The notes beneath the pieces are model-generated. The model had not been told where the DNA came from. It saw only the letters and a program-made list of their open reading frames with translations, and did not search any database. Below, one piece after another: positions 3,602 through 41,448 of a stretch of 41,448 bases of DNA; positions within the stretch are counted from its first letter, which is position 1; each line of letters opens with the position of its first letter. The stretch comes from a virus. Location of the stretch: IMG/VR virus record IMGVR_UViG_3300045120_000235, positions 1-41,448 of that record; one strand, given 5' to 3'. Position numbers and translations under genes: made by a program.

Positions 3602-4029
3602 ACCGCGAAGCCATTTACGCCGCGCTATTCACTCAGCTGTCGGCGATCCCTGGTCTCGTCACCACGTCCAGGATCTTGAAGCACTGGACCGACGTGCCGG
3701 GAGATCTGCAGCCGGCGCTCTATCAGGCGCAAGGTCGCGAGATCCCGCTCACGGTGACTGGCCAGCCCACGAAATGGGAATTGCGGCCGACGATCTACGT
3801 GTACGTGCGCACCGACGGACAGACGCCACCGAGCACGGCGATGAATCCGATCCTCGACCAGGTGGTCGCGATCGTCAACAAGCGGAACCCGATCACCAAC
3901 ACGAACAACCTGGGCGGCATCGCTGGCGTCGAGTGGGCCCGGTTGGACGGTGCGATCGAGACCGACGAAGGAACTCTTGGCAACCAGGCCGTGGCCATCG
4001 TGCCCGTCCTCATCCTGGTTACCGACTGA
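3598..4029 (+). CDS. Tail terminator/completion protein
   Basis: This 143-residue protein begins with NREAIYAALFTQLSAIPGL and continues with an alpha/beta pattern (PTIYVYVRTDGQ, ILDQVVAIVNK, VAIVPVLILVTD). The pattern is typical of the small tail-terminator proteins encoded just before the tube gene. The start is TTG at 3598, overlapping the TGA of the previous gene. GAGGGG lies 7 bases upstream and supports this rare start. Function is inferred from position and fold pattern. Confidence 0.7.
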   Translation: MNREAIYAALFTQLSAIPGLVTTSRILKHWTDVPGDLQPALYQAQGREIPLTVTGQPTKWELRPTIYVYVRTDGQTPPSTAMNPILDQVVAIVNKRNPITNTNNLGGIAGVEWARLDGAIETDEGTLGNQAVAIVPVLILVTD

Positions 4030-4056
4030 AACCCGGCGCAATGCCGTGAACCCCGA

Positions 4057-4078
4057 CCCGCCATTTCGGCGGGTTTTT
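4057..4078 (+). terminator. Intrinsic terminator before major tail gene
   Basis: CCCGCC-ATTTC-GGCGGG followed by TTTTT forms a compact terminator in the 68-bp gap before the tube gene. Confidence 0.82.
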
Positions 4079-4097
4079 ACTTTGTAGGAGAGTCAAA

Positions 4098-4886
4098 ATG
4101 CAGAATCTATTCGGGTCGGGTTTCCTGTACGGCGTACCGACCGCCGACGCGACGGGTGCCGCGATCGCCAACCCCACTCCGGTGCAGTTCGGCGTCCTGC
4201 AGGACATCAGCATCGATTTCAGTTTCGACAACAAGCAGCTGCACGGCCAGAACCAGTTCGCCGTCGCTGTCGGTCGCGGCAAGGGCAAGATTTCCTGCAA
4301 AGCGAAAGCCGCCCAGGTCAACGGCGCCCTGTTCAACTCGCTATTCTTCGGCGGCACCAACTCGGCCGGCATTTTGTCGGCCAACAACGACCTCGTGGGT
4401 GTGGCGATCCCGGCCACGCCGTTCACCATCACGCTGTCGACCACCAACACGCTCACCACGCGGCAGATCCCGAACAGCGGTACGTTCTACCGCGACCTCG
4501 GCGTGCGCAATGCGAGCGGCGTGCCGATGACTCGCGTCGCATCGGCTCCGACCACGGGTCAGTACACCGTGTCCAACGTCGGCGTCTATGTGTTCGCCGC
4601 AGCCGATGTCGGCCTGCAGGTCTTCATCAACTACGAGTACACCGCCACCAGCACCGTCGCGCAGAACCAGATCGTGGTCAACCAGGCCATGGGTTACGCG
4701 CCGACGTTCACCACCGTGCTGAACCAGCCCTACGCCGGCAAGACGCTGCACGTGCGGCTGTATCAGTGCATCACATCGAAGCTGTCCATGGCGTCGAAGA
4801 ACGACGAATTCACCATTCCGGAGTTCGATTTCGACGCCTTCCAGGATGCCTCGGGCAACGTTCTTGCCTACGGCTTGAGCGAGTAA
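4098..4886 (+). CDS. Major tail (tube) protein
   Basis: This 262-residue, mostly beta-strand protein is rich in Thr, Asn and Gly. The phrase VLQDISIDFSFDNKQLHGQNQFAVAV is typical of tube subunits. It follows the tail terminator gene and precedes the chaperone pair and the tape measure, the fixed siphophage order. A Shine-Dalgarno (TAGGAGAG) precedes the ATG. The terminator just upstream suggests its own dosage control. Confidence 0.86.
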   Translation: MQNLFGSGFLYGVPTADATGAAIANPTPVQFGVLQDISIDFSFDNKQLHGQNQFAVAVGRGKGKISCKAKAAQVNGALFNSLFFGGTNSAGILSANNDLVGVAIPATPFTITLSTTNTLTTRQIPNSGTFYRDLGVRNASGVPMTRVASAPTTGQYTVSNVGVYVFAAADVGLQVFINYEYTATSTVAQNQIVVNQAMGYAPTFTTVLNQPYAGKTLHVRLYQCITSKLSMASKNDEFTIPEFDFDAFQDASGNVLAYGLSE

Positions 4887-5475: not shown

Positions 5476-7907
5476 GCATCCAGGTAAAAATCGAAGGCGT
5501 CTACGGCGAATTCATCAGTGCGACGAAGCTGATGGCCGACGTGTTCGGCGGCCTCATGGATGGCATGAAGCAGGGCCTCAAAGAAATGTCCGATGAGGCC
5601 AAGGCGGACATGAAGGGCCACGAATCGGCCACCGAGCAGTTCGCCAACATCCTCAAAAACAACATGAAGGGCGTCACCGGCGCCGTCGAGGGCGTGAAGA
5701 TCGCCTGGGCGCAGCTGGCCGTCATCTTCGAAGCTGGCCACTTCCTCAAGGACGCCGTCCAGGAGACGATCGCCGCGACCGTCGAATCGCAGAAGCTCGG
5801 CCGCGCGCTCGGCGTCAGTGCCACGCAGGCAAGCTATCTCAAGGTCGCCATCGGCGACGTGCACGGCACCACCGACCAGTTCATCAACGTCGCCAAGGGC
5901 CTGGACGCGCAGGTTCGCAAGAACGAAAAGGCGATGAACGATTTCGGGCTGCAAACCCGGGATGCCAGCGGCCATCTGAAAGACCAGCAGACCCTCACCC
6001 TCGACGCACTCGAGGTGCTGCGCGGCTACAAAGAGGGCACCGATCGGAACATCGCCGCCACCCAGCTGTTCGGCAAGGGCGTCAACGTGACCAGCGAAAT
6101 GCTCGCGCTCAACGCCGAGAAGCTGGCCGCCGCCAAGGAAAAGGCCGACGCCTTCGGGCTGGCCACCGGCAAGGACGACGTCGACGCCGCGAACAAGTTC
6201 CGCGACGCGATGAACGATATGCACGACATTTTCGATGCCGTGATGAAGGCCGTGGGATCCGCGTTGTTGCCGGTGTTGAATGACCTGGCGCAGTGGTTCC
6301 TGGAGGATGGCCCGACGGCACTGATGGCGGTCAAGATTGCGATCGACATCGTCATCAGCCTGTTCAAGGGCCTGGCGTTCGCCGCGAAGGCCGCTTGGGA
6401 AGTGCTGCAGCTCGCCTTCACCAACATGAGCCGGATGGCTACCGGCTTCGGCCAGGTGTTCTACGACGTCATGCACGGCGACTTCGCCGGCGCCAAGGAT
6501 GCGGCGTCGTCGATGGTGAGCGATATGTCGACCAACATCGGCGAATCGTTCCAGCGAATCATGGACAAGGCCTCGGCTACCACCGACTCCCTGTCGGACA
6601 TGTGGGGCAAGGTCATCAACCCGGGCAAGACGCCCGACAGCGGCACCGAGAACGGCGGCACCGAAGATGCCGATATCGCCAAGAAGCCAAAGAAACACAG
6701 CGGCGCCGCCGAAGCGCGACGCGAGGCCGCGGAGCAGCGCCGGCTGCTGAAAGAAAAATACGACATGGTGATGGAGTCCTATAAGGGCGAGGAACAAGCC
6801 GCCCGGGACAACCTGACCAAAGTCCTCGAGATCCAGAAAAAGGAGCTCGTCGCCGCGACCGCCATGTATGGCGAGAAGTCCAAGCAGGCGATCGACGCCG
6901 CCAATCGCGTCGCGGAAACCCAGCGAAAGATCGATGAGCAGCAGGCGCAGATGGATCTCCGCCGCGCCGAATCGCATCGCGCCATCATGCGCATGCAGAT
7001 CGACAACGATCAGCGGGATGCCGAAGCCCAGCAGCAGATGGGCGAAATCACCTACGCCAAGTTGATCGAGCTCGAGCGCGGCTACGAGGACCAGCGATAC
7101 CAGCTGGAGCGGCAGTCGCTCGAGGACGAAGCGGCGATGAACATCGATCGCATCGCCGACCACCAGGCCACGCTGCTCAAGCTCGAGGAACTCGACCAGG
7201 CGCACGAAAACCGTCTGAGCGCCATCACTACCCAGGGCGCGCTCGAGCGTAACCAGACGCAGAAACAGGTCGAGGGCGTCATGGCCAGCGGCTTCGCCAA
7301 CGCGATCATGGGGATGGTGAAAGGCACCATGACGTTCAAGCAGGCGATGAAGTCGATGTTCTCGTCGATCCTGCAGGGGCTCGTGCAGATGCTCGTGCAG
7401 TGGGCGGCCAAGATGGCCGCCCACTACATCATGGATCGCATCATGCACAAGGCGAACCTGACCGCGAAGAAAGCGGCGGAGAAGGTTGCCGCGGCATCGT
7501 CGATCGCGACCAACGCCGCGTTGGCGGGATCCGCCGGCACCGCGTCGTTCGCCGGCGCTCCCTGGCCGATCGATATCGGCGCCCCTGCCTTCGGCGCGGC
7601 GATGGCTGCAGCAGCTGGCGCGTTCGGCGTCGGGCTCGCGGCCGAACAGGGCTTCGACGTGCCGGCCGGCATGAACCCGGTCACCCAACTCCACCAGAAA
7701 GAAATGGTGTTGCCGGCGGCGCAGGCGCAAGTCATCCGCGACATGGCAGACAGCGGCGTATCCGGCGCCGGCGGCGACCACTACCACATCCATGGTGCGC
7801 ACGACGCGCAGAGCTTCATGGACTTTTTGCGGCGTAATCCGGGGCAACTGTCGTCCGGCTTCAAATACGCCGTCCGCATGGGCCACCTGGTCGGGGTGAA
7901 GCTGTGA
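5472..7907 (+). CDS. Tape measure protein
   Basis: This 811-residue protein sets tail length. It has a helical N-terminal region and hydrophobic segments around residues 275-310 (IAIDIVISLFKGLAFAAKAAWEVL). A long coiled coil rich in Glu/Gln/Ala spans about 415-595, with KMAAHYIMDRIM near 645 and an Ala/Gly-rich membrane-like stretch near 690-720. It is short for a tape measure, which predicts a tail of roughly 110-120 nm using the usual 1.5 Å per residue rule. The ATG overlaps the stop of the T-like frame (ATGA). Confidence 0.92.
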   Translation: MSIQVKIEGVYGEFISATKLMADVFGGLMDGMKQGLKEMSDEAKADMKGHESATEQFANILKNNMKGVTGAVEGVKIAWAQLAVIFEAGHFLKDAVQETIAATVESQKLGRALGVSATQASYLKVAIGDVHGTTDQFINVAKGLDAQVRKNEKAMNDFGLQTRDASGHLKDQQTLTLDALEVLRGYKEGTDRNIAATQLFGKGVNVTSEMLALNAEKLAAAKEKADAFGLATGKDDVDAANKFRDAMNDMHDIFDAVMKAVGSALLPVLNDLAQWFLEDGPTALMAVKIAIDIVISLFKGLAFAAKAAWEVLQLAFTNMSRMATGFGQVFYDVMHGDFAGAKDAASSMVSDMSTNIGESFQRIMDKASATTDSLSDMWGKVINPGKTPDSGTENGGTEDADIAKKPKKHSGAAEARREAAEQRRLLKEKYDMVMESYKGEEQAARDNLTKVLEIQKKELVAATAMYGEKSKQAIDAANRVAETQRKIDEQQAQMDLRRAESHRAIMRMQIDNDQRDAEAQQQMGEITYAKLIELERGYEDQRYQLERQSLEDEAAMNIDRIADHQATLLKLEELDQAHENRLSAITTQGALERNQTQKQVEGVMASGFANAIMGMVKGTMTFKQAMKSMFSSILQGLVQMLVQWAAKMAAHYIMDRIMHKANLTAKKAAEKVAAASSIATNAALAGSAGTASFAGAPWPIDIGAPAFGAAMAAAAGAFGVGLAAEQGFDVPAGMNPVTQLHQKEMVLPAAQAQVIRDMADSGVSGAGGDHYHIHGAHDAQSFMDFLRRNPGQLSSGFKYAVRMGHLVGVKL

Positions 7908-21813: not shown

Positions 21814-22346
21814 GCTTCACCCGGGAACTTTCCGTCGACCATTTCAGCGAGGTCGGATCGGCCAGGGCACATGCTCAAGTCGACGCCCTTGATCGCGCAG
21901 TGCCAGTTATAGAGCGCGGCGGCCGTCGAAATGCAGTGGTGCAGCGCCTTCTCGTTCGGCGCCGGTGGGAGCTCTTCGAAGCGACCGTCGAAGAACTGAG
22001 CCGCCGGGCGTACCCAGATCTTGCCGTCGTCCTCGCCGCGATAGACGACTACTCGTGTTCCACGATTGTTCTCGTCTTCGCCTTGAGCGATCACTTCGTA
22101 GGTGGTGCCGCGCTTCACGTGCCGATATCGCGGCAGCACGTCGGCATTGGCGGCGTGCAGTGCCTTACCGGCGAGGTAAGCGACCAACCAGAACCAGTCT
22201 GCCGGGCGTTTCGCGCGATCGTGTGCGGTTCCCCACCGTTCGACCTGGTGCACGGCTTCAACATGCGTGCCGCGCAGGAACGCATCGATCTCCGGCGAGT
22301 TGATCAATTGCTTGAGTCGGTCAGCTTCGATCTGTTGCTGGTTCAT
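21810..22346 (-). CDS. DUF1653-like domain phage protein
   Basis: This 178-residue protein has an N-terminal helical part with VERWGTAHDRAKRPADWFWLVAYLAGKAL. A middle beta domain (YRHVKRGTTYEVIAQG ... VVYRGEDDGKIWVRPAAQFFDGRF) matches the DUF1653 pattern. The fusion is common in phages and its role is unknown. It overlaps the ParB-like stop by four bases. Confidence 0.7.
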   Translation of the reverse strand: MNQQQIEADRLKQLINSPEIDAFLRGTHVEAVHQVERWGTAHDRAKRPADWFWLVAYLAGKALHAANADVLPRYRHVKRGTTYEVIAQGEDENNRGTRVVVYRGEDDGKIWVRPAAQFFDGRFEELPPAPNEKALHHCISTAAALYNWHCAIKGVDLSMCPGRSDLAEMVDGKFPGEA

Positions 22347-24022
22347 TTCTTCACCGCCGCTTTTTTCATAGCCTTCTTCGCGGCCTTTTTCGGGGCCGGC
22401 TTTGGCGGCGCTGGCGCGCGCAGCAGCTGTGGTATCCAGTTCGCTGCAGCGAGCAGCGGATAAGCAGCAGCAGCGAGGGGTTTGCCCGTGAGCTTGTCCA
22501 GTGGTTTCGCCTTATCGGCGCCGCAGGCTTCGGTCACCGCTGTGACGATGTATGGCTTGGCTTGCTCGCTGAGCCATTGTTGCGAAAGCTGCCAGTGCTC
22601 CGCGAAAGTGACGCCGACAACTTTGGCGAACGCATGCACGTCCGGCTCCTGGGTGTCGTCAGCCAGGATCAGTTCCGCGGCCATGATGGCCAGAAGCTTA
22701 TCGACCAAGTGGTTGTTTTCCGACTTGATCAGCCAAGCAAGGATGCTGCCGTGTTGCTTGACGCCGGCGTCGATCTTTTTGGCCCACTCGGCGAGCTCCT
22801 GGATGCCCTTCGGATCCGTCGCCTTGATGGCTTGCGCAATCGTCGACGGCGCGTAGGGCATCGCCTCCAGCACGATCAGCGTCGCCGCCGGCTCGCTCCA
22901 CTTTCCGGTGAAAAACTGCGCCGCCATCGCCGCAGCCAGGCACGTGCGGGCCATGTAGCCGTCCTCGCGCAACTCGCGGCGCAAGATCGCCGTGCGCACG
23001 CCGTAGAGCTTGTCATTGGTCTCGCGTGTTCCGTCACCCTTGGGCTTGTTGGCGCCGGCCTTTTTCTTGCTCGCCGGCGCCTTCTCGCCGGGCTTGACCA
23101 TGCCTTTGTGCACGTCGATGTTGCCGTTGTGGCTGATCGTCACGATCACGCCGAGCTTGGGATCGGGTTTGCCGTCGCCGCCTTGCTTGTATTTCGCCTT
23201 CTCGCTGTAGTCGAACGACAGCCGGGCCTCCGCCCAGCCCCAACCTTTCGCGCGTTGCTTCGCCGCTTCGGCCTCGAGCTTGGCCAGCGCGAGCTTGTTC
23301 ACCAATTTGGAATCGGGCAGAGACGCAAAATCGCTGAACAAATCCTTGCGCGTCTTGCCGCCTGCCTTCTCGTACGCGTCGACGCCGACGAAGCGGCCGA
23401 GCGTGCTATCCAGGCCGATATCCTTTTCGACCAGCGCCTGGCGCAGCTGCTGCGGGCTGCGTAGCCATAGGGCATGCTCGCCGGCTTTCCAGGCCTTCAT
23501 CTGGGCGGGGTGATCGTCGACCAGCGCCAGGGCCATCATCTGATCGAGTGTTGCCTTGCCCGCGCGATACTCGGCCAGCAGCGATGGAGCGACGTTACCC
23601 AGGCGAAACCGTTGTTCGACATGCTTCTCGCTGGTGCCGAACCGCACGGCGATCTCGGCGGAGGTAAAGCCAGACTCCTTGGCCAGCGCCCGGAATGCTT
23701 CGAATTCGTCGGCCGGGTGCATCGCCTGTCGCACGACGTTCTCCGCCAGCGAGATCTCGGCGGCTTCCGCGCTGGTGACGATCCTGCAGGCGACGGGATG
23801 ATCGTCGGCGAGCGCGCCTTCCTTGGCGAGCAGCTGCAGTGCCTGCAGTCGGCGGTTGCCAGCCACCACCTGGTACTTGCCGGCGATCTCAACGACGGAA
23901 AGGTTTTGCAACAGTCCATGCGCCTGGATCGAGCCGGCAAGGTCTTCGATGCTGGCGCCGCCCGACTTGCGGACATTGCTCGCGGACGATGTGAGTTGGG
24001 ACAGCGGAATCGACAGAGTCAT
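22343..24022 (-). CDS. ParB-like nuclease/DNA-binding domain protein
   Basis: This 559-residue protein starts MTLSIPLSQLTSSASNVRK. The ParB N-terminal domain (about 1-100) includes GLLQNLSVVEIAGKYQVVAGNRRLQAL, and the CTP-binding GNRR motif is present. A helix-turn-helix region follows at about 110-180 (TSAEIAVRFGTSEKHVEQRF). The C-terminus is a Lys/Ala/Pro-rich tail. No ParA is encoded nearby, so partition is unlikely on its own. Its ATG overlaps the reverse transcriptase stop (ATGA), so it is translated from the same transcript as the DGR. Confidence 0.85.
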   Translation of the reverse strand: MTLSIPLSQLTSSASNVRKSGGASIEDLAGSIQAHGLLQNLSVVEIAGKYQVVAGNRRLQALQLLAKEGALADDHPVACRIVTSAEAAEISLAENVVRQAMHPADEFEAFRALAKESGFTSAEIAVRFGTSEKHVEQRFRLGNVAPSLLAEYRAGKATLDQMMALALVDDHPAQMKAWKAGEHALWLRSPQQLRQALVEKDIGLDSTLGRFVGVDAYEKAGGKTRKDLFSDFASLPDSKLVNKLALAKLEAEAAKQRAKGWGWAEARLSFDYSEKAKYKQGGDGKPDPKLGVIVTISHNGNIDVHKGMVKPGEKAPASKKKAGANKPKGDGTRETNDKLYGVRTAILRRELREDGYMARTCLAAAMAAQFFTGKWSEPAATLIVLEAMPYAPSTIAQAIKATDPKGIQELAEWAKKIDAGVKQHGSILAWLIKSENNHLVDKLLAIMAAELILADDTQEPDVHAFAKVVGVTFAEHWQLSQQWLSEQAKPYIVTAVTEACGADKAKPLDKLTGKPLAAAAYPLLAAANWIPQLLRAPAPPKPAPKKAAKKAMKKAAVKK

Positions 24023-25392
24023 GATTGGATCCTCGGGAAGTGGGACGGGAGTTCGATCAGTCGACCTTCCGAACGGAGATCGAAGTTGCGACGCCGAGTG
24101 GCGGCAGCGAGCCAGGGAAAACGGCGATGGAAGTCGCGGCGCAGCTGGTAGCTGCTCGCGTGGTCGAAGTGGCCTTCGTAGCTCGCCCAGATCGCGGAGA
24201 CGTCACGCAGATCCTGCGGCGTCACCTGCAGGCCGTGTGCGGTGACGTGGCGATACGCCCACCCAGACAACGCCTGGCGCGCGTGCGACACGACACGACG
24301 CCGAACGAGCGTGTGGGAAGGGCGGACGATGTAGCCGAGGAAGTCGATGCCGTCGGTCAGCGGCTGCAGGCGGATGTCGGCTTTCAGCGACAGGTTGAGC
24401 CGGCTGGCCAGGAACGCCTCAATCTGGTGTTGCCACGCGAGCAGCTGCTCGCGATCGCGATGCACCAGGACAAAGTCGTCGACGTAGCGCAGGTAGCGTT
24501 TCGCCTTGAGCACATGTTTGACGAACTGGTCCAGTTCGTTGAGGTACACGTTGATGAAGAACTGCGATGACAGGTTGCCGATCGGAATGCCGCAGCCCGG
24601 CGGCGCGTTCTCCAGCCGCTTGTGCGGCGGCACCTGGGCGCGTTCCTCGGCGCTGGCGCGGTAGTGCACGCCCTGCTCGAGGGGCGACAGGCGAAGCAGG
24701 GCGTGGACCGCGTGCTGTATCGGCAGCGATATCCCGGCGCGTTGCATGCGTGCCTTGAGCAGGCCGTAGAGGATCTTCCGCTTGACCGAGTTGAAGCAGT
24801 TGTGGATGTCCAGCTGCAGGAAATATCCGCCGCCCTGGCCGCTGGCGACTTGCCGAACGAACGCCACCAGCTGGCGAACCGCGGCGTGGGAACCTTTGCC
24901 GCTGCGGTTGGCGTAGCTGTCGGAAATGAAGGTCGGCTCGCAGACGGCCTCGAGCGGCGGCACCACCAGGTGATGCACCACGCGGTCGGCGAAATCAGGC
25001 GCGTGGATCTCGCGTGCCTTCGGCCGCGTGGCGATGAAACAGGTGGTCGGCCGCGGTGACCAGGTGCCGGCGTTGATCTGGTCCTGGATCTCGAGCAGGT
25101 TGTCCATCCAACGCAGTTCGAACTGCAGCTGGTTGACGCTGGGGCGCTTGCCTTGCCGCGCGCGCTGGAAAGCAGAAAGGATGTCCGGAAAGCGAATGCC
25201 TTCCGGTGCCGCACCGGGATACTCACCGGGCACGCCAGCGGGCCGCACGGCGAGGACGAAGCACTCGTTGTTGCGGTTGTTGGTGTTGGCGTTGCCGTTG
25301 TTGAAATTGAGGTACCACGCGTCCGAAGACGCATCCCCCGACACTTGCGACCCGGCCGCGCATCCCGTCGTGGCGTAGCGTGGCGTCGTCAT
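24019..25392 (-). CDS. DGR reverse transcriptase (frame includes the TR)
   Basis: The open frame is 457 residues. RT motifs are KAREIHAPDFADRVVHH (125-141), catalytic LDIHNCF (Asp195), IGNLSSQ (271-277, the IGxxxSQ form typical of DGR enzymes), YVDD (303-306) and GIDFLGYIV. The ATG at 25392 overlaps the avd stop (ATGA), which would place the template repeat in the first about 55 codons. The RT fold proper starts near residue 65. A GTG at 25233 would give a 404-residue enzyme starting right at the TR end, without an evident ribosome site. The true start is unresolved. Confidence 0.94.
   Translation of the reverse strand: MTTPRYATTGCAAGSQVSGDASSDAWYLNFNNGNANTNNRNNECFVLAVRPAGVPGEYPGAAPEGIRFPDILSAFQRARQGKRPSVNQLQFELRWMDNLLEIQDQINAGTWSPRPTTCFIATRPKAREIHAPDFADRVVHHLVVPPLEAVCEPTFISDSYANRSGKGSHAAVRQLVAFVRQVASGQGGGYFLQLDIHNCFNSVKRKILYGLLKARMQRAGISLPIQHAVHALLRLSPLEQGVHYRASAEERAQVPPHKRLENAPPGCGIPIGNLSSQFFINVYLNELDQFVKHVLKAKRYLRYVDDFVLVHRDREQLLAWQHQIEAFLASRLNLSLKADIRLQPLTDGIDFLGYIVRPSHTLVRRRVVSHARQALSGWAYRHVTAHGLQVTPQDLRDVSAIWASYEGHFDHASSYQLRRDFHRRFPWLAAATRRRNFDLRSEGRLIELPSHFPRIQS
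25222..25331 (-). repeat. DGR template repeat (TR)
   Basis: These 110 bases align without gaps to both variable repeats. The sense strand carries eight AAC codons and one AAT, the usual DGR design in which adenines are mutagenised during reverse transcription. The 3' 45 bases (from GAG TGC TTC onward) are GC-rich and identical in TR and VRs. They end with a G in the TR (sense) where both VRs have C, reminiscent of the IMH/IMH* distinction. The TR lies between avd and the RT core, in frame with the RT. Confidence 0.95.
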
Positions 25393-25826
25393 GCGTTGGC
25401 CCCAGAAACTGAGGCGGCCGGGGTACTCAGTATCTGTCCACGCTGGCCATGCCGCGGTTGCGGCTGGCCATTCTGGGAACTACGGTGCAAATCCTTTTTC
25501 CAGCCGCCGGCCTGCATGCCGAGCTCTCGGCAGATCCTGGCCAGCTGTTCGAAGCGTGCCTTGCTGGTGAACGCGCGCAGCAGGGCGGCGATCTGCAGTT
25601 CGCCCTTGAGCGTGTCGATCTCGCGCACCAGGTCGTCGACCAGGTCACGGCGATATCGCGGCTCCGCGTACGCCTGGCGCGCCAGCCTCAGCACCTTCCG
25701 CACCTGGGCGCGCAGATCCTCGCCCGTCGGGTACCGGTTGAAGCGCGAAAACTGCCGAACGGCCTGCTCGATTTCTAGGAGCAGGCGCTCGGACAGCTTC
25801 ACGATCGGCGGCGCGTGGAAGGTCAT
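25389..25826 (-). CDS. avd: Avd, DGR accessory variability determinant
   Basis: This 145-residue protein is predicted almost wholly helical up to residue 110 (LLLEIEQAVRQFSRF ... DLVDDLVREIDTLKGELQIAALLRAF ... FEQLARICRELGMQAGGWKK), the four-helix-bundle Avd pattern. Avd is a basic pentamer that binds RT and the TR-containing RNA. A 34-residue Gln/Pro/Ser-rich tail follows, longer than in BPP-1 Avd. Its 3' end abuts the TR, so this stretch may be constrained as DGR RNA. It lies between the second target and the RT. Confidence 0.87.
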   Translation of the reverse strand: MTFHAPPIVKLSERLLLEIEQAVRQFSRFNRYPTGEDLRAQVRKVLRLARQAYAEPRYRRDLVDDLVREIDTLKGELQIAALLRAFTSKARFEQLARICRELGMQAGGWKKDLHRSSQNGQPQPRHGQRGQILSTPAASVSGANA

Positions 25827-25857
25827 GGTATGCGGTCGGCTTTTTTCAGAAGGTCAA

Positions 25858-26415
25858 TTACTGACCGGGCACGCCAGCGGGCCGCACGGCGAGGACGAAG
25901 CACTCGCCGCCGCGGCTGTCGGTGTCGGCGGAGCCGTAGCTGAAAAAGAGGTACCACGCGCCCGAAGACGGATTCCAGGACGCGCGCCGACGGGTCCAGT
26001 ACCAATCGTCGGTCCGGATCCAGAAGAAGAAGTTGGGATCGCACGCGGGGTTATGGCGCGAGCGATCGATGATCGGCTCGAGTTCCTTGTCGTCGCCCAT
26101 CTGCCAGCCTTTGACGCCGCAGTGCTCGAGCTCGGCGGCGGCTTGCTCGCCTTCCTCGTGCGGCCAGGTGCGATCGCCGACGTTGATCGCCGCGACGATC
26201 ATGTTGTTCTGGAGCAGGTGGATCGCGCCGACGTCGCTGTTGGGCGCATCGTCGGGCAGCGGCTCGAGCGTGTGGCTCAGCTTGATGTAGAGCCGGTCGT
26301 CCCGGCGCCGCTCCGGAAGGGCGCGGTGCACGGTGCCCTCGCCCTCGGCGATGAATTGCGTGGGGAAGTGGCCGCACGTCGGGCAGTTGCTGACGCTGAT
26401 CGTGTTCTCGTCCAT
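25858..26415 (-). CDS. DGR target protein 2, DUF1566/C-type-lectin-like
   Basis: This 185-residue protein has an N-terminal region with CPTCGHFP (11-18) and a beta-rich middle. The C-terminal DUF1566-like domain spans about 83-185 (GVKGWQMGDDKEL, WYWTRRRASW, SSGAWYLFF, ECFVLAVRP). The variable repeat encodes the last 38 residues. Ten positions (Gly152, Phe157, Ser159, Tyr160, Ser162, Asp164, Asp166, Ser167, Gly169, Gly170) differ from the TR translation. There is no signal peptide or transmembrane segment. The TAA stop is one codon past the VR core. The ligand is unknown. Confidence 0.88.
   Translation of the reverse strand: MDENTISVSNCPTCGHFPTQFIAEGEGTVHRALPERRRDDRLYIKLSHTLEPLPDDAPNSDVGAIHLLQNNMIVAAINVGDRTWPHEEGEQAAAELEHCGVKGWQMGDDKELEPIIDRSRHNPACDPNFFFWIRTDDWYWTRRRASWNPSSGAWYLFFSYGSADTDSRGGECFVLAVRPAGVPGQ
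25861..25970 (-). repeat. DGR variable repeat VR2
   Basis: This aligns to the TR at an offset of 639 with no gaps. In the core 107 bp there are 14 substitutions and every one lies at a TR adenine. Nine AAY codons plus one GAC codon are altered. A 5-bp stem GGTCA/TGACC (25852-25866) sits over its 3' end and the stop codon. Confidence 0.95.
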
Positions 26416-26458
26416 TACGTTCTCTCAGTGGCACGGCTCGCGCCGCGGAAGGTTTTTT

Positions 26459-27028
26459 TCAAAGGGCAAACGACTGACCGGGCACGCCAGCGGGCCGCAC
26501 GGCGAGGACGAAGCACTCGTAGTTGCGGAGGTAGGTGTAGGCGTAGCCGCTGTCGAAAAGGAGGTACCACGCGACCGAAGACGGATCAGCCGCCCAGGGC
26601 GTGCGCGTCCAGTGCGAAGCGGCGTCGATATCGGGGAAGTAGTTGGTGTCAGCCGCAGGATCGTGCTTCGTCAGATCCCGGATCGCCTCGAGGTCTTCCA
26701 GGTCGGGATAGCGCCAGTCCTTGAAACCGAGCAGCGTGAGCGCAGCGCACAGCTTCTCGCCGGCGGCCCACTTCTGCCGCTTCGCGTGGATCTTCCGCGC
26801 GGTGACCCAGATATTGCGGCTGGCGACGTAGACCGCGACGTGATCGGTGCCGGCATAGTCGGCGGGCAGCGCGTTGCCGTCGGCGCCGATCTTGATGAAG
26901 CGCGCCGGCGCCGCGGTCTCGCCGCTGAACGAAAGCAGTTCGCCGGCGATCGGCGACAGGTCGGAGTCGCGCTTGATGTTGATGAAGCTCGCGCCGTTCG
27001 GCTCGATGCGGATGGAAATGTTCTGCAT
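26459..27028 (-). CDS. DGR target protein 1, DUF1566/C-type-lectin-like
   Basis: This 189-residue protein starts at ATG 27028 with AGGGG about 10 bases upstream. A longer frame to 27187 lacks a site and overlaps the neighbour. The N-terminal 80 residues are beta-rich. Residues 85-189 have the DUF1566 pattern: KWAAGEKLCAALTLLGFKDWRYPDLEDLEAI, SHWTRTPWAA, SSVAWYLLF, ECFVLAVRP. The diversified residues are Val152, Leu157, Asp159, Ser160, Tyr162, Tyr164, Tyr166, Leu167 and Tyr170. Asn169 keeps the template codon. Four tyrosines are typical of a selected binding face. No export signal is seen. Confidence 0.88.
   Translation of the reverse strand: MQNISIRIEPNGASFINIKRDSDLSPIAGELLSFSGETAAPARFIKIGADGNALPADYAGTDHVAVYVASRNIWVTARKIHAKRQKWAAGEKLCAALTLLGFKDWRYPDLEDLEAIRDLTKHDPAADTNYFPDIDAASHWTRTPWAADPSSVAWYLLFDSGYAYTYLRNYECFVLAVRPAGVPGQSFAL
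26474..26583 (-). repeat. DGR variable repeat VR1
   Basis: This aligns to the TR at an offset of 1252 with no gaps. In the core 107 bp there are 11 substitutions, all at TR adenines. The invariant 3' segment is identical to TR and VR2 apart from the terminal G/C difference. The coding frame continues five codons beyond it. Confidence 0.95.
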
Positions 27029-37914: not shown

Positions 37915-38370
37915 ATGAAGGGGCGAAAGCCGACGGCACCCCACCTCAAGCTGCTCCAGGGCACCTCCCGGCCGGATCGGGACGTCCCTGACGAGATCGG
38001 GTTCGACGCGGTCACGGATTTCCCGCCGCCGCCGATGCACTTGAACGTCGACGGCGTTGCAATGTGGTCGGATCTCGGGCCCCAACTGGTGGCCGCGAAG
38101 ATCCTGCAGACCGTCGATCTCTACGCGCTCCAGCAGCTTTGTTACTGCTGGCAGCGTCATTGCGCGAAGCAACGCGCGGGCATGGACATCACCGCGGCCG
38201 AAGACATGGCGCTGAAAGCGCTGTTCTCGGAATTCGGATTGACCTCCGCGTCGCGCCGAAAGGTGACCGCTGGTGCGGAAAAAAAGAAAGACAACCGCTT
38301 CGCGTCGAACGGCAAAGCGCCGGACGCCGGCGGCCCGCGTTCCAAGCCTCGAGGCAAACGGACCGCGTGA
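37915..38370 (+). CDS. Small terminase subunit, P27 family
   Basis: This 151-residue protein begins MKGRKPTAPHLKLLQGTSRPDR, the standard P27 opening. A helical middle (VDLYALQQLCYCWQRHC) precedes a basic tail. ATG 37915 is preferred over a GTG at 37870 because the family motif starts here. It recognises the packaging site and loads the large subunit. Confidence 0.85.
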   Translation: MKGRKPTAPHLKLLQGTSRPDRDVPDEIGFDAVTDFPPPPMHLNVDGVAMWSDLGPQLVAAKILQTVDLYALQQLCYCWQRHCAKQRAGMDITAAEDMALKALFSEFGLTSASRRKVTAGAEKKKDNRFASNGKAPDAGGPRSKPRGKRTA

Positions 38371-40048
38371 CTATGTCGCGATCGCGGTGGCCTATGCGCA
38401 GGCCGCGGTCGACGACAAGAAGGGGAAACACTTCGGACGACTGCTGCGCCTGGGTGCGCAGCGATTTCTCACTGATCTAAAACGCGCGCGCAAGAAGGAT
38501 GCGCCGTTTCGGTTTAGCGAGTGGCATGCCCACGACGTCTGCGACTTCATCGAGAAGTTGCCGCACGTCGAGGGCAAGTGGACGACCGAAGAGATCGTGC
38601 TCCACCCGGCGCACGTTTTCTTCCTGGTCAACCTGTTCGGGTTTCGAAAGCCGGACGGCACGCGGCGATTCACGTCGGCGCTGTTCGCGGTGGCGCGCAA
38701 GAATGCCAAGTCGACATTGGCCGCCGGAATCTTGCTGTATTGCCAGTGTTGCGAGGATGAGGAGGGCGCCCAGATTATTTCTGCAGCGACGACCGGATCT
38801 CAGGCGCGGATCATCTTCAACGTCGCGAAGCGGATGGTCGAGAAGACCATCGATCTGCGCGAGGCCTTCGGGTTGGCCTGTTGGGCGAATTCGATCAGCC
38901 GCGTCGAGGTCGGCGCCAGCTTCAAACCGATCAACGCGAAGGCCAGCACGCAGGACGGCTTGAATCCGTCGCACGTCGGCCTCGACGAGATCCACGCGCA
39001 CAAGACGCCGGATCTGTTGAACGTGTTGACGTCGGCCGCCGGCGCCAGGGCTTGCCCGCTCTGGCTTTACACCACGACCGAGGGATACACGAACCCAGGG
39101 CCGTGGAGCGAGATCCGGCAGTTTGCGATCCAGCTGCTCGAGGGATTGTTCGGCGACTCGGCCGATCACTTCCTCGCAGTGTTCTTTGCCGTCGACGCCG
39201 ACGACAAGGATTTCGACGAGAAGGCGTGGGGCAAAGCGAATCCGTTGATGGATTCGAACCCGCACCTGCTCGCGGCGATCCGCAAGGAGGCGATCGAAGC
39301 GAAGGCAATGCCTTCGAAGCTGGCGGAGTTTCAGATCAAGCGTCTGAACCGGCCCGCATCGGCGGCGAACGGTTTCATTCTGCTGCCGAAATGGCGCGCT
39401 TGTGATGGTCCAGTGGACCTGAAAGCGCTGTTGAAGGTGCCGTGCTGGGGCGGTTTGGACTTGGCCAGCACGCGAGATCTCTGCTCGTTCCGACTGATCT
39501 GGAAAGTCGACGGACGGATCCTGACATGGGGCCGGCGCTGGGTGCCAGAACACGCGGTCGCGCAGCGCACCGAACGCATGACGGTGCCCTACGCCGGCTG
39601 GGTGGCATCGGGTTACCTCGAGCAAACGCCGGGCGACGTCACCGATTACCGGGTGATCGAAGAAGCGGTGATCGAGGCCTGCAACACCTACAACGTGCAG
39701 ACCATTGGCTTCGACAAATGGAATGCGACGGAGCTGACCAGCCGCCTGGTTGAGCAGCTGCCCGAAGGGAAATTGCTCGAGTTTGTGCAAGGGCCGAAGT
39801 CCTACCACCCGGCGATGCAGGAGCTCGAGCGCGCGTACATCGGCGGCAAGCTCAATCACGCCGGCGACCCGGTTCTGAATTGGTGCGCGTCCAACCTGGT
39901 CGCGCGCAAAGACCAGAACTTGAACATGGCTCCGGACAAGAAACGTTCGGCCGACAAGATCGACGACATGTCCGCGCTGCTGATGGCAATCGGCGTCAGC
40001 GGTGGCGCCGAGTCCCAATTCATCCAACAAGGATTCGTGGTGCTCTGA
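38273..40048 (+). CDS. Large terminase subunit
   Basis: This protein is up to 591 residues. The Walker A-like motif is ARKNAKST (141-148), the Walker B motif HVGLDE (234-239), and the nuclease part has GGLDLAST and a final DDMSALLMAIG. It is the ATP-driven packaging motor and end-cutting nuclease. The GTG at 38273 gives a 98-bp overlap with the small subunit and keeps the DYVAIAVAYA segment. A GTG at 38387 would remove it. The start is uncertain. Confidence 0.93.
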   Translation: MRKKRKTTASRRTAKRRTPAARVPSLEANGPRDYVAIAVAYAQAAVDDKKGKHFGRLLRLGAQRFLTDLKRARKKDAPFRFSEWHAHDVCDFIEKLPHVEGKWTTEEIVLHPAHVFFLVNLFGFRKPDGTRRFTSALFAVARKNAKSTLAAGILLYCQCCEDEEGAQIISAATTGSQARIIFNVAKRMVEKTIDLREAFGLACWANSISRVEVGASFKPINAKASTQDGLNPSHVGLDEIHAHKTPDLLNVLTSAAGARACPLWLYTTTEGYTNPGPWSEIRQFAIQLLEGLFGDSADHFLAVFFAVDADDKDFDEKAWGKANPLMDSNPHLLAAIRKEAIEAKAMPSKLAEFQIKRLNRPASAANGFILLPKWRACDGPVDLKALLKVPCWGGLDLASTRDLCSFRLIWKVDGRILTWGRRWVPEHAVAQRTERMTVPYAGWVASGYLEQTPGDVTDYRVIEEAVIEACNTYNVQTIGFDKWNATELTSRLVEQLPEGKLLEFVQGPKSYHPAMQELERAYIGGKLNHAGDPVLNWCASNLVARKDQNLNMAPDKKRSADKIDDMSALLMAIGVSGGAESQFIQQGFVVL

Positions 40049-41385
40049 TGTTCGACTTCCTGAAAGCCAAGCAGCCGCCGAAGCCGATCGAACGCCTCGA
40101 GCCGGTCATGAATTGGACCGAGTTCCACGACGTGCCGTCGTCGGACGCGGTCCGCATGGGCCAGATCTTCGGCGGTTATCGCACCGACTCCGGCGCCATC
40201 GTCAACGAGCGGACCGCGATGCGCGTCTCCGCGGTCTATCGCTGCGTTAGCCTGATCGGCGGCGCGATCGCGACACTGCCCTGCAGCTTCTACAAGAAGA
40301 TCTCGCCGGAAGTGCGCGAGAAGGCGAACGACCATTCCTACTGGTGGCTGTTCAACGAAGAGGCGACGCCGCGCTTCACGGCCGCGACGTTCTGGGAATT
40401 CATCACGGGCCAGATGCTGCTGCGCGGCGACGGCATCGCCTACCTGGTGCGCGCCAACAAATACTCGCCGGTCGTCACCGGCGTGATTCCGGTCGCGCGG
40501 GATCACGTGACGATCCGCCGAAACGGGGACCGGCTGAGCTACACCATCGGCGACTTCCTCAAGGATGGCGGCTACGGCTACTTCACCGTGGACCAGGACG
40601 ACGTCCTGCACTTCCCTGGCGCCGGTTTCGACGGGATCTGCAGCAAGTCGGTGATCAGCTGGGCCGCGCGCCAGGCGATCGGCATCGCGATCAAGGCCGA
40701 CGAACACGCGGCGCAGACCTTCGGTTCTGGCGCGTCCATCCAGTACGCCGTGAAGTCGGCGAAGCAGATGACGCAGGACCAGCAGGAAAACTTCCGCAAT
40801 GCCTGGGTGGCGAAATACAGCGGCCAGGGCGTCAGTCAGATCCCGCTGGTGCTGACCGAAGGCCTCGAGGTCCAGGAACTGTCCATGACGGCGGTCGACG
40901 CGCAGCTGCTCGAGTCGCGCAAGTTCCAGGTGGTCGATATCGCCCGCGCGTTCGGCGTGCCGCCGCACATGCTCGGCGAGACGACCGCGAGCACGAGCTG
41001 GGGCACCGGCATCGAGCAGATGTCGATCGGCTTCGTGAAATACACGCTGCAGGCGCACCTCAACCGCTTCCAGCAGGAGCTCAATCGGAAGCTGTTCCCG
41101 CGTCTCGATCGCTATTTCGTCGAATTCAACGTCGACGGCCAGCTGGCGGGCGATTCGAAAACGCAGTCCGAGTATTTCAGCAAGGCGCTCGGCGGCCCTG
41201 GCACGCAGGGCTGGATGGTGGTCAACGAAGTGCGACGCCTGAAAAACCTCCCGCCGCTGCCTGGAGGCGACGAACTGGCGAAAGCCGGTGCCGCGCCGGC
41301 TCCAAAGCCGCCGGCGGACAACGCAGACAACAAGGAACCGACCGATGAACCGCTCGCTGATGAAACGACCGACCAACCGGCTTGA
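40048..41385 (+). CDS. Portal protein, HK97 family
   Basis: This 445-residue protein forms the dodecameric DNA gate. Family features include AMRVSAVYRCVSLIGGAIATLPCSFYKK near 60-88, QMLLRGDGIAYLVR, and ARAFGVPPHMLGETTASTSW near 301-320. The Pro/Asp/Glu-rich tail overlaps the protease start. It overlaps the terminase stop by TGATG. Confidence 0.94.
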   Translation: MFDFLKAKQPPKPIERLEPVMNWTEFHDVPSSDAVRMGQIFGGYRTDSGAIVNERTAMRVSAVYRCVSLIGGAIATLPCSFYKKISPEVREKANDHSYWWLFNEEATPRFTAATFWEFITGQMLLRGDGIAYLVRANKYSPVVTGVIPVARDHVTIRRNGDRLSYTIGDFLKDGGYGYFTVDQDDVLHFPGAGFDGICSKSVISWAARQAIGIAIKADEHAAQTFGSGASIQYAVKSAKQMTQDQQENFRNAWVAKYSGQGVSQIPLVLTEGLEVQELSMTAVDAQLLESRKFQVVDIARAFGVPPHMLGETTASTSWGTGIEQMSIGFVKYTLQAHLNRFQQELNRKLFPRLDRYFVEFNVDGQLAGDSKTQSEYFSKALGGPGTQGWMVVNEVRRLKNLPPLPGGDELAKAGAAPAPKPPADNADNKEPTDEPLADETTDQPA

Positions 41386-41448
41386 GCGTCTTTTCGTCGA
41401 TAACCGCGCGACGCCGCGCGCCTATCGAATCGAAGCCGCCGCCGGCGC
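41323..41448. repeat. Terminal direct repeat (right copy)
   Basis: Identical to bases 9-134 at an offset of 41,314. It carries the end of the portal gene and the first codons of the protease gene, showing how the two genes overlap across the circle junction. Confidence 0.95.
41345..41448 (+). CDS. Prohead protease, partial second copy (window end)
   Basis: The first 34 codons of the same gene as at 31, cut by the window end. This is duplication of the sequence ends and not a second gene. Confidence 0.9.
   Translation, partial: MNRSLMKRPTNRLERLFVDNRATPRAYRIEAAAG

Follow-up and report, generated by a model that had tools for sequence, protein, structure and literature searches.

In the diversity-generating retroelement (DGR) of phage BPP-1, the spacer between the template repeat (TR) and brt, the reverse transcriptase (RT) gene, folds, recruits the RT–Avd complex and primes (PMC12875486). 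A different arrangement, in which the TR overlaps the 5' end of the RT open reading frame (ORF), was listed as structural group 3 in a 2012 survey that deemed spatial arrangement irrelevant to the mechanism (PMC3521204). Here we analyzed the whole 41,448-bp IMG/VR record IMGVR_UViG_3300045120_000235 (hereafter the window), a temperate siphovirus with genes for integrase, terminase, portal, head and tail, whose minus strand encodes a complete DGR made up of two C-type-lectin-like targets, Avd, one TR and an RT. We consider it likely, the mechanism proposed below included, that this is a phage DGR of a large RT clade that carries its RNA scaffold 5' of the TR and has no 3' spacer.

A preliminary description of this stretch had proposed a complete DGR with two targets at 24019-27028, and all of its parts were found within that span. 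The TR and the two variable repeats (VR1 and VR2) align without gaps over 110 bp, and tabulating the mismatches by TR base on the coding strand bore out the adenine-only pattern: within the 107-bp core, 11 of 11 differences in VR1 and 14 of 14 in VR2 fall on TR adenines, which, given 22 adenines in the core, would arise by chance with a probability of ~6.7e-18. Each VR has one extra change outside the core, from G in the TR to C three bases from the 3' end; this difference is also present in close relatives, and we take it to resemble the difference between IMH* and IMH (initiation of mutagenic homing) in BPP-1. No further TR-like copy was found in the record. The RT carries the IGNLSSQ and YVDD motifs, as the description had it, matches PHROG 1423 (E=1e-93) and, as a structural model, has the BPP-1 DGR RT as its best solved match (8ub7, template modeling score 0.88 by target length). 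Avd was recovered by PHROG 3206 'Avd protein of DGR' (2e-11) and weakly by Pfam bAvd (4.6e-4) and NCBIfam DivGenRetAVD (6.7e-6, below cut-off), the curated Pfam and NCBIfam cut-offs not being reached. Both targets likewise proved lectin-like, with Lcl_C matches at E 4e-17 and 6e-11. Thus, the DGR reading was right; what it overlooked is the placement of the TR within the RT ORF and the structured RNA that precedes it.

The TR is read in the VR frame within the RT ORF and ends 31 nucleotides (nt) before the conserved RT core, and the window contains no ATG, GTG or TTG between TR and core. A noncoding TR–RT spacer of the BPP-1 type is absent, the end of the TR being inside the ORF. RT relatives were gathered from IMG/VR and GTDB genomes, yielding 69 nonredundant close relatives (window included), to which the following counts refer; those with named hosts are almost all from Lysobacteraceae. 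At least 66 have the stop of avd and the start of RT overlapping as ATGA. No stop interrupts the RT frame between this ATG and the core, TR included, in any of the 69, whereas the other two frames contain stops in 25 and 65. The distance from ATG to core takes 21 different lengths, every one divisible by three, and a chance overlap of ORFs was therefore rejected. The TR is in the VR frame, as assigned by Asn content, in 65 relatives and shifted in 4, in which the ORF is open nonetheless. In the AlphaFold model, RT residues 1-63, which contain the translated TR, have a predicted local distance difference test score <50 and are predicted to be disordered. An alternative TR/RT overlap was seen in loci L014, L015, L021, L022 and L034, where an RT-frame ATG lies within the 3' part of the TR.

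Mutual information among the 69 relatives revealed a set of helices upstream of the TR, with the top signal linking the avd tail to bases just 3' of the TR. In the resulting helix, P1, the avd tail pairs with the six bases right 3' of the TR, so that the helix spans the TR; 99.8% of cells (single pairs in single relatives) are paired, in the forms GACACT/AGTGTC, GAAACT/AGTTTC, GATACT/AGTATC and rarer ones. The patterns used to locate these hexamers specified three bases per strand and let the variable positions take any base. Two motifs beside P1, CTGAG on its upstream side and GTGAG by the TR edge, show no change in any of the 69 relatives, although each is only partly paired. Four further helices (H1–H4, Table 1) complete the structure. 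Pairing in H1 reaches 98.6% and 90.9% of cells, with 8 of 8 pairs changed on both sides, and the 3' strand of H3 contains GGGG (GGGG or GAGG among the relatives), a putative RT Shine-Dalgarno sequence 7 nt before the ATG. For the structure as a whole, counted on a MAFFT alignment built ignoring pairing, 94.8% of cells are paired as compared to 78.6 ± 0.5% in shuffles, none of 500 shuffles being as high, and compensatory cells number 320 vs 70. These shuffles ignore relatedness; sliding the partners by 1-3 columns retains it, and the signal then collapses. RNAalifold run on our first alignment missed most of the helices, and looking locus by locus for a TR-flanking helix, with no constraint on position, gave too much noise to stand alone and became convincing only once anchored by homology. 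An Rfam scan of the window gave no match at E<=1, the RT-15 model (RF03018) included.

An ordinary BPP-1-like element could present much the same picture if its functional 3' spacer RNA were hidden in the RT coding sequence after the TR and the upstream RNA were secondary. BPP-1 does need its own 3' spacer for recruitment and priming (PMC12875486), but the pattern of constraint here makes this unlikely. Differences at fourfold sites stand at 0.33 both between the ATG and the TR and in the TR, rising to 0.63 over the 20 codons that follow it as compared to 0.55 in the RT core, so that the sites where a hidden spacer would have to lie are as free as the core or freer. Moreover, mutual information among the relatives gave no strong covarying pairs downstream of P1, and canonical relatives retain a separate, Rfam-detectable RNA in that place. 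Nothing argues more clearly for a scaffold on the 5' side than the end of RNA-type constraint at P1, and the hidden spacer was rejected because no such constraint follows P1. Slightly less probable again is that the overlap itself is an artifact of ORF calling, with RT truly starting further down, from a GTG at the 3' end of the TR or from a rare start codon beyond it. The window and many relatives do have in-frame GTG codons close to the 3' end of the TR, the first 63 residues are predicted to be disordered, and this N-terminal segment has little protein-type codon bias. Set against these points are the conserved ATGA, the uniformly open frame and the lengths in multiples of three, together with the four relatives whose TR frame is shifted and whose ORF is open all the same; several relatives, in addition, lack any start codon from the TR through to the core.

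The remaining alternative, which we regard as very improbable, attributes the covariation to overlapping-gene coding, relatedness or a signal at the DNA level instead of to a functional RNA. Both P1 strands and most helices do lie inside coding sequence, and the pair-count shuffles are blind to relatedness. However, the most variable P1 pair, which occurs as AU, CG, UA, UG and GC, falls on the second base of a codon in each gene, so that its changes alter residues of both Avd and RT; it is nevertheless paired in 68 of 69 relatives. Coding thus fails to explain P1, because this pair alters both proteins, and relatedness, which column sliding preserves, does not keep the signal from being lost; the pairing also recurs in distant loci with other sequences. 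Coding-driven covariation was rejected. Several observations nonetheless weigh against a scaffold placed 5' of the TR and the mechanism that we attach to it. P1 is absent from the minimum-energy fold of the GC-rich window RNA taken alone, which does not outperform shuffles (z -0.47), and H3 is mostly invariant, its pairing thus being weakly tested. Four loci (L182, L186, L208 and L230) are nested in the clade of short-spacer RTs although 84-286 nt separate their TR from the RT core; a match to our covariance model of the RNA (R1) is still present in these loci. Because the G/C difference at the edge of the TR is fixed, any cDNA (complementary DNA) that reaches a VR must begin 5' of it, which rules out P1 itself as the first base pair copied. 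Finally, we infer from sequence both that the RNA binds RT–Avd and that P1 adjoins the priming site.

The 5' RNA is not confined to the window's closest relatives. In a quick, midpoint-rooted RT tree, 76 relatives, 72 of them with short spacers, were split from 19 canonical RTs, BPP-1 included, with a Shimodaira–Hasegawa-like approximate likelihood ratio test (SH-aLRT) support of 100. Model R1 matched upstream of the TR in Geobacter, Thiodictyon-type, Nitrospirota, Desulfobacterota and other loci outside the training set, some matches being strong (5e-22 to 1e-8) and many weak. Scanned blind, 119 Lysobacteraceae genomes gave 6 R1 matches, all at DGR RTs with P1 and all previously collected; the scan is thus a demonstration of specificity that added no members. 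In distant relatives anchored by R1, P1 takes the form of nnnYACUG and AGURnnn-type strands that covary (0 of 2000 permutations). Six spacer-less loci, including phages Magia, Cruim01 and LPPA56, have RT-15 directly 5' of the TR, and P1 in RT-15 loci reads CAATCTG/CAGATTG or GAATCTG/CAGATTC, with a mismatch in some. Canonical loci with an Rfam match, in turn, have RT-14 or RT-9 between TR and RT. The motif CAGA[AT]..CAG[CT][GA] lies 3' of the TR in 9 of 19 canonical loci (1.5 expected) and 5' of it in 46 of 69 loci of the window's clade (4.6 expected), with no enrichment in other spacer-less loci; together with the 5/4 loop common to H1 and the RT-14 hairpin, this hints that one RNA may have shifted across the TR. 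A single weak R1 match 3' of the TR in canonical locus L042 (E=0.012) was dropped as a lead.

From the function of P1 onwards, the translation switch and the priming site included, what we propose is a model. A single transcript would contain avd, TR and RT; H1–H4 would fold upstream of the TR, and P1 would hold the 3' edge of the template against this scaffold. RT and Avd would then copy the TR from the edge held by P1, miscopying adenines, with the invariant CUGAG beside P1 as the candidate for cDNA priming, and the cDNA would replace VR1 or VR2, thereby varying two lectin-like proteins. In addition, H3 would cover the RT Shine-Dalgarno sequence such that folding of the RNA blocks RT translation, until ribosomes ending avd open H3 and restart at the ATGA overlap, producing an RT whose disordered N-terminal tail is the translated TR. 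The 5' RNA may thus both stand in for the BPP-1 spacer and hide the RT ribosome-binding site. If true, each transcript would serve as either template or RT message, P1 would supply exact base pairs for mutation, and the model would predict the cDNA start site. A broader extension, which we put forward tentatively and hold to be somewhat less likely than not to prove correct in full, is that DGR RNAs form two classes, the known 3' scaffold and a widespread, undescribed 5' scaffold in which P1 places primer and template and a base within the neighboring CUGAG primes, with the template of the phage branch doubling as RT messenger so that folding and RT translation exclude each other. The large clade that has no such spacer but a covarying 5' RNA encompasses Lysobacteraceae phages and prophages as well as loci in Geobacter, Nitrospirota, Desulfobacterota and others. 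Annotation would also be corrected, given that the 5' RNA and the likely RT start of this branch are absent from the databases searched.

Are such elements active? Between relatives that share a TR, VRs compared to one another differ at 14 of 23 adenines vs 1 of 88 other positions in one comparison, at 15 of 22 vs 0 of 85 in another and at 19 of 23 vs 0 of 87 in a third, while their flanks differ by 1.5-12%. Variation so nearly confined to TR adenines shows this DGR layout to be active, and by extension the window copy probably is too. Clade-wide, VRs changed at 57% of adenines vs 0.1-0.3% elsewhere, a contrast biased by the TR/VR finder, which penalized non-A differences; the VR-to-VR comparisons are less affected by this penalty.

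Table 1 Features of the DGR locus in the window (positions in the 41,448-bp record)
Feature	Position	Strand	Description
Target gene 1	26459..27028	-	189 amino acids (aa), Lcl_C (C-type-lectin-like), C-terminal VR1
VR1	26474..26583	-	11 core differences, all at TR A; one G to C at 3' edge
Target gene 2	25858..26415	-	185 aa, Lcl_C, C-terminal VR2
VR2	25861..25970	-	14 core differences, all at TR A; one G to C at 3' edge
avd	25389..25826	-	145 aa; TGA stop overlaps RT start as ATGA
Structured RNA (model R1)	25328..25481	-	5' of TR; overlaps avd 3' end and RT 5' end
H1	25437..25478	-	Outer 3 bp, 5-nt/4-nt internal loop (CAGAA/GCGT), inner 5 bp
P1 5' strand	25429..25434	-	GATACT, in avd tail
H2 5' strand	25417..25423	-	97.1% paired; 7/7 pairs changed on both sides
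H3	25399..25415	-	25415-25411 with 25403-25399; 95.3% paired, only one pair changed on both sides
H4	25355..25384	-	25384-25378 with 25361-25355; 89.2% paired, 6/7 pairs changed on both sides
H2 3' strand	25336..25342	-	Pairs with 25417..25423
TR	25222..25331	-	Within RT ORF, VR reading frame
P1 3' strand	25218..25223	-	AGTATC, TR 3' edge, within RT ORF
RT	24019..25392	-	457 aa, ATG at 25392; residues ~21-57 = translated TR; conserved core from ~64-68

The two targets are paralogues with 41% identity over 143 aa. The model of target 1 has a C-type-lectin-like fold, the closest solved structure being the C-terminal domain of Legionella Lcl (8q4e, E=4e-4). Its mutable codons specify residues 152-171, which lie in the final strands and loops of this model, plus one at 185; by analogy with known DGR targets, these residues would make up the ligand face. 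About 26 nt 3' of VR1 we noted by eye CGCGGC-GCGA-GCCGTG, a candidate for the GC-rich hairpin with a 4-nt GRNA loop of BPP-1-like DGRs, and the same inspection of the 60 nt following VR2 disclosed no GRNA-loop hairpin. A T/A-rich stretch lies 3' of each VR, TTTGAAAAAAACC at 26473-26450 and TTCTGAAAAAAGCC at 25860-25838 on the minus strand, and in many relatives CAGTAATTGG-TTTTGG follows the VR; it is possible that this stretch acts as an integration-site signal instead of the BPP-1 hairpin. Some relatives have three VRs (L012, L004 and L010), with one in L012 at 6865-6969, downstream of the RT.

Downstream in the window, a ParB-like gene (22343-24022, minus strand; ParB_N 1.7e-8) begins with an ATG that overlaps the RT stop, and because of this overlap it is probably part of an operon target1-target2-avd-RT-parB. 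Terminase and portal genes occupy the right end of the window (38273-41448) and head protease and capsid genes the left (1-831), the placement seen when a near-complete phage genome is circularly permuted; we detected no direct terminal repeat in the window. Two other loci are of note in their own right. Viral contig L056 (6253-7739) carries a DGR-type RT plus a CRISPR-DR2 repeat array, its TR/VR differences extending beyond adenines, and L072 has a 669-bp direct repeat over the VR/TR region (3619-4844), in which 15 of 16 differences are at adenines of the downstream copy.

How far does this locus depart from described systems? That a TR can overlap RT was already known in 2012, and the 5' RNA and P1 are apparently new, as we found no paper describing either of them, or RT-15 as a 5' DGR RNA, in the literature searched; an earlier mention is possible in Weinberg 2017, Wu 2018 or the BPP-1 ribonucleoprotein structure paper, which were outside that search. 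Group 3 of the 2012 survey shares with the window a TR over the 5' end of the RT ORF but was named for its arrangement only, with no RNA, conserved frame or TR-spanning helix described. BPP-1 is alike in its order target(s)-avd-TR-RT, adenine-specific TR/VR differences, C-type-lectin-like target, homologous RT (8ub7) and the presence of an Avd, yet it has one target where the window has two, and 144 nt between TR and brt where the window has its TR inside the RT frame and a structured RNA 5' of the TR. The RT-14 RNA (RF02921) lies 3' of the TR in canonical DGRs, but its hairpin, with a 5-nt/4-nt internal loop and AGA motif, resembles H1; this likeness suggests homology, in which case one ancestral RNA would have moved across the TR. 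For RT-15, the Rfam model misses the window RNA at E<=1, the sequences and the branched domain differ, and the annotated structure is without P1. Nevertheless, RT-15 too lies directly 5' of the TR in spacer-less DGRs, its linker pairs with the TR 3' edge, and both RNAs have a common topology of 3-bp stem, 5-nt/4-nt internal loop, hairpin, 13-14 nt linker containing a P1 strand and branched domain. With its 5' position, 5/4-loop hairpin, linker–TR-edge pairing and branched domain, the window RNA falls within the RT-15-like group of 5' DGR RNAs that we propose.

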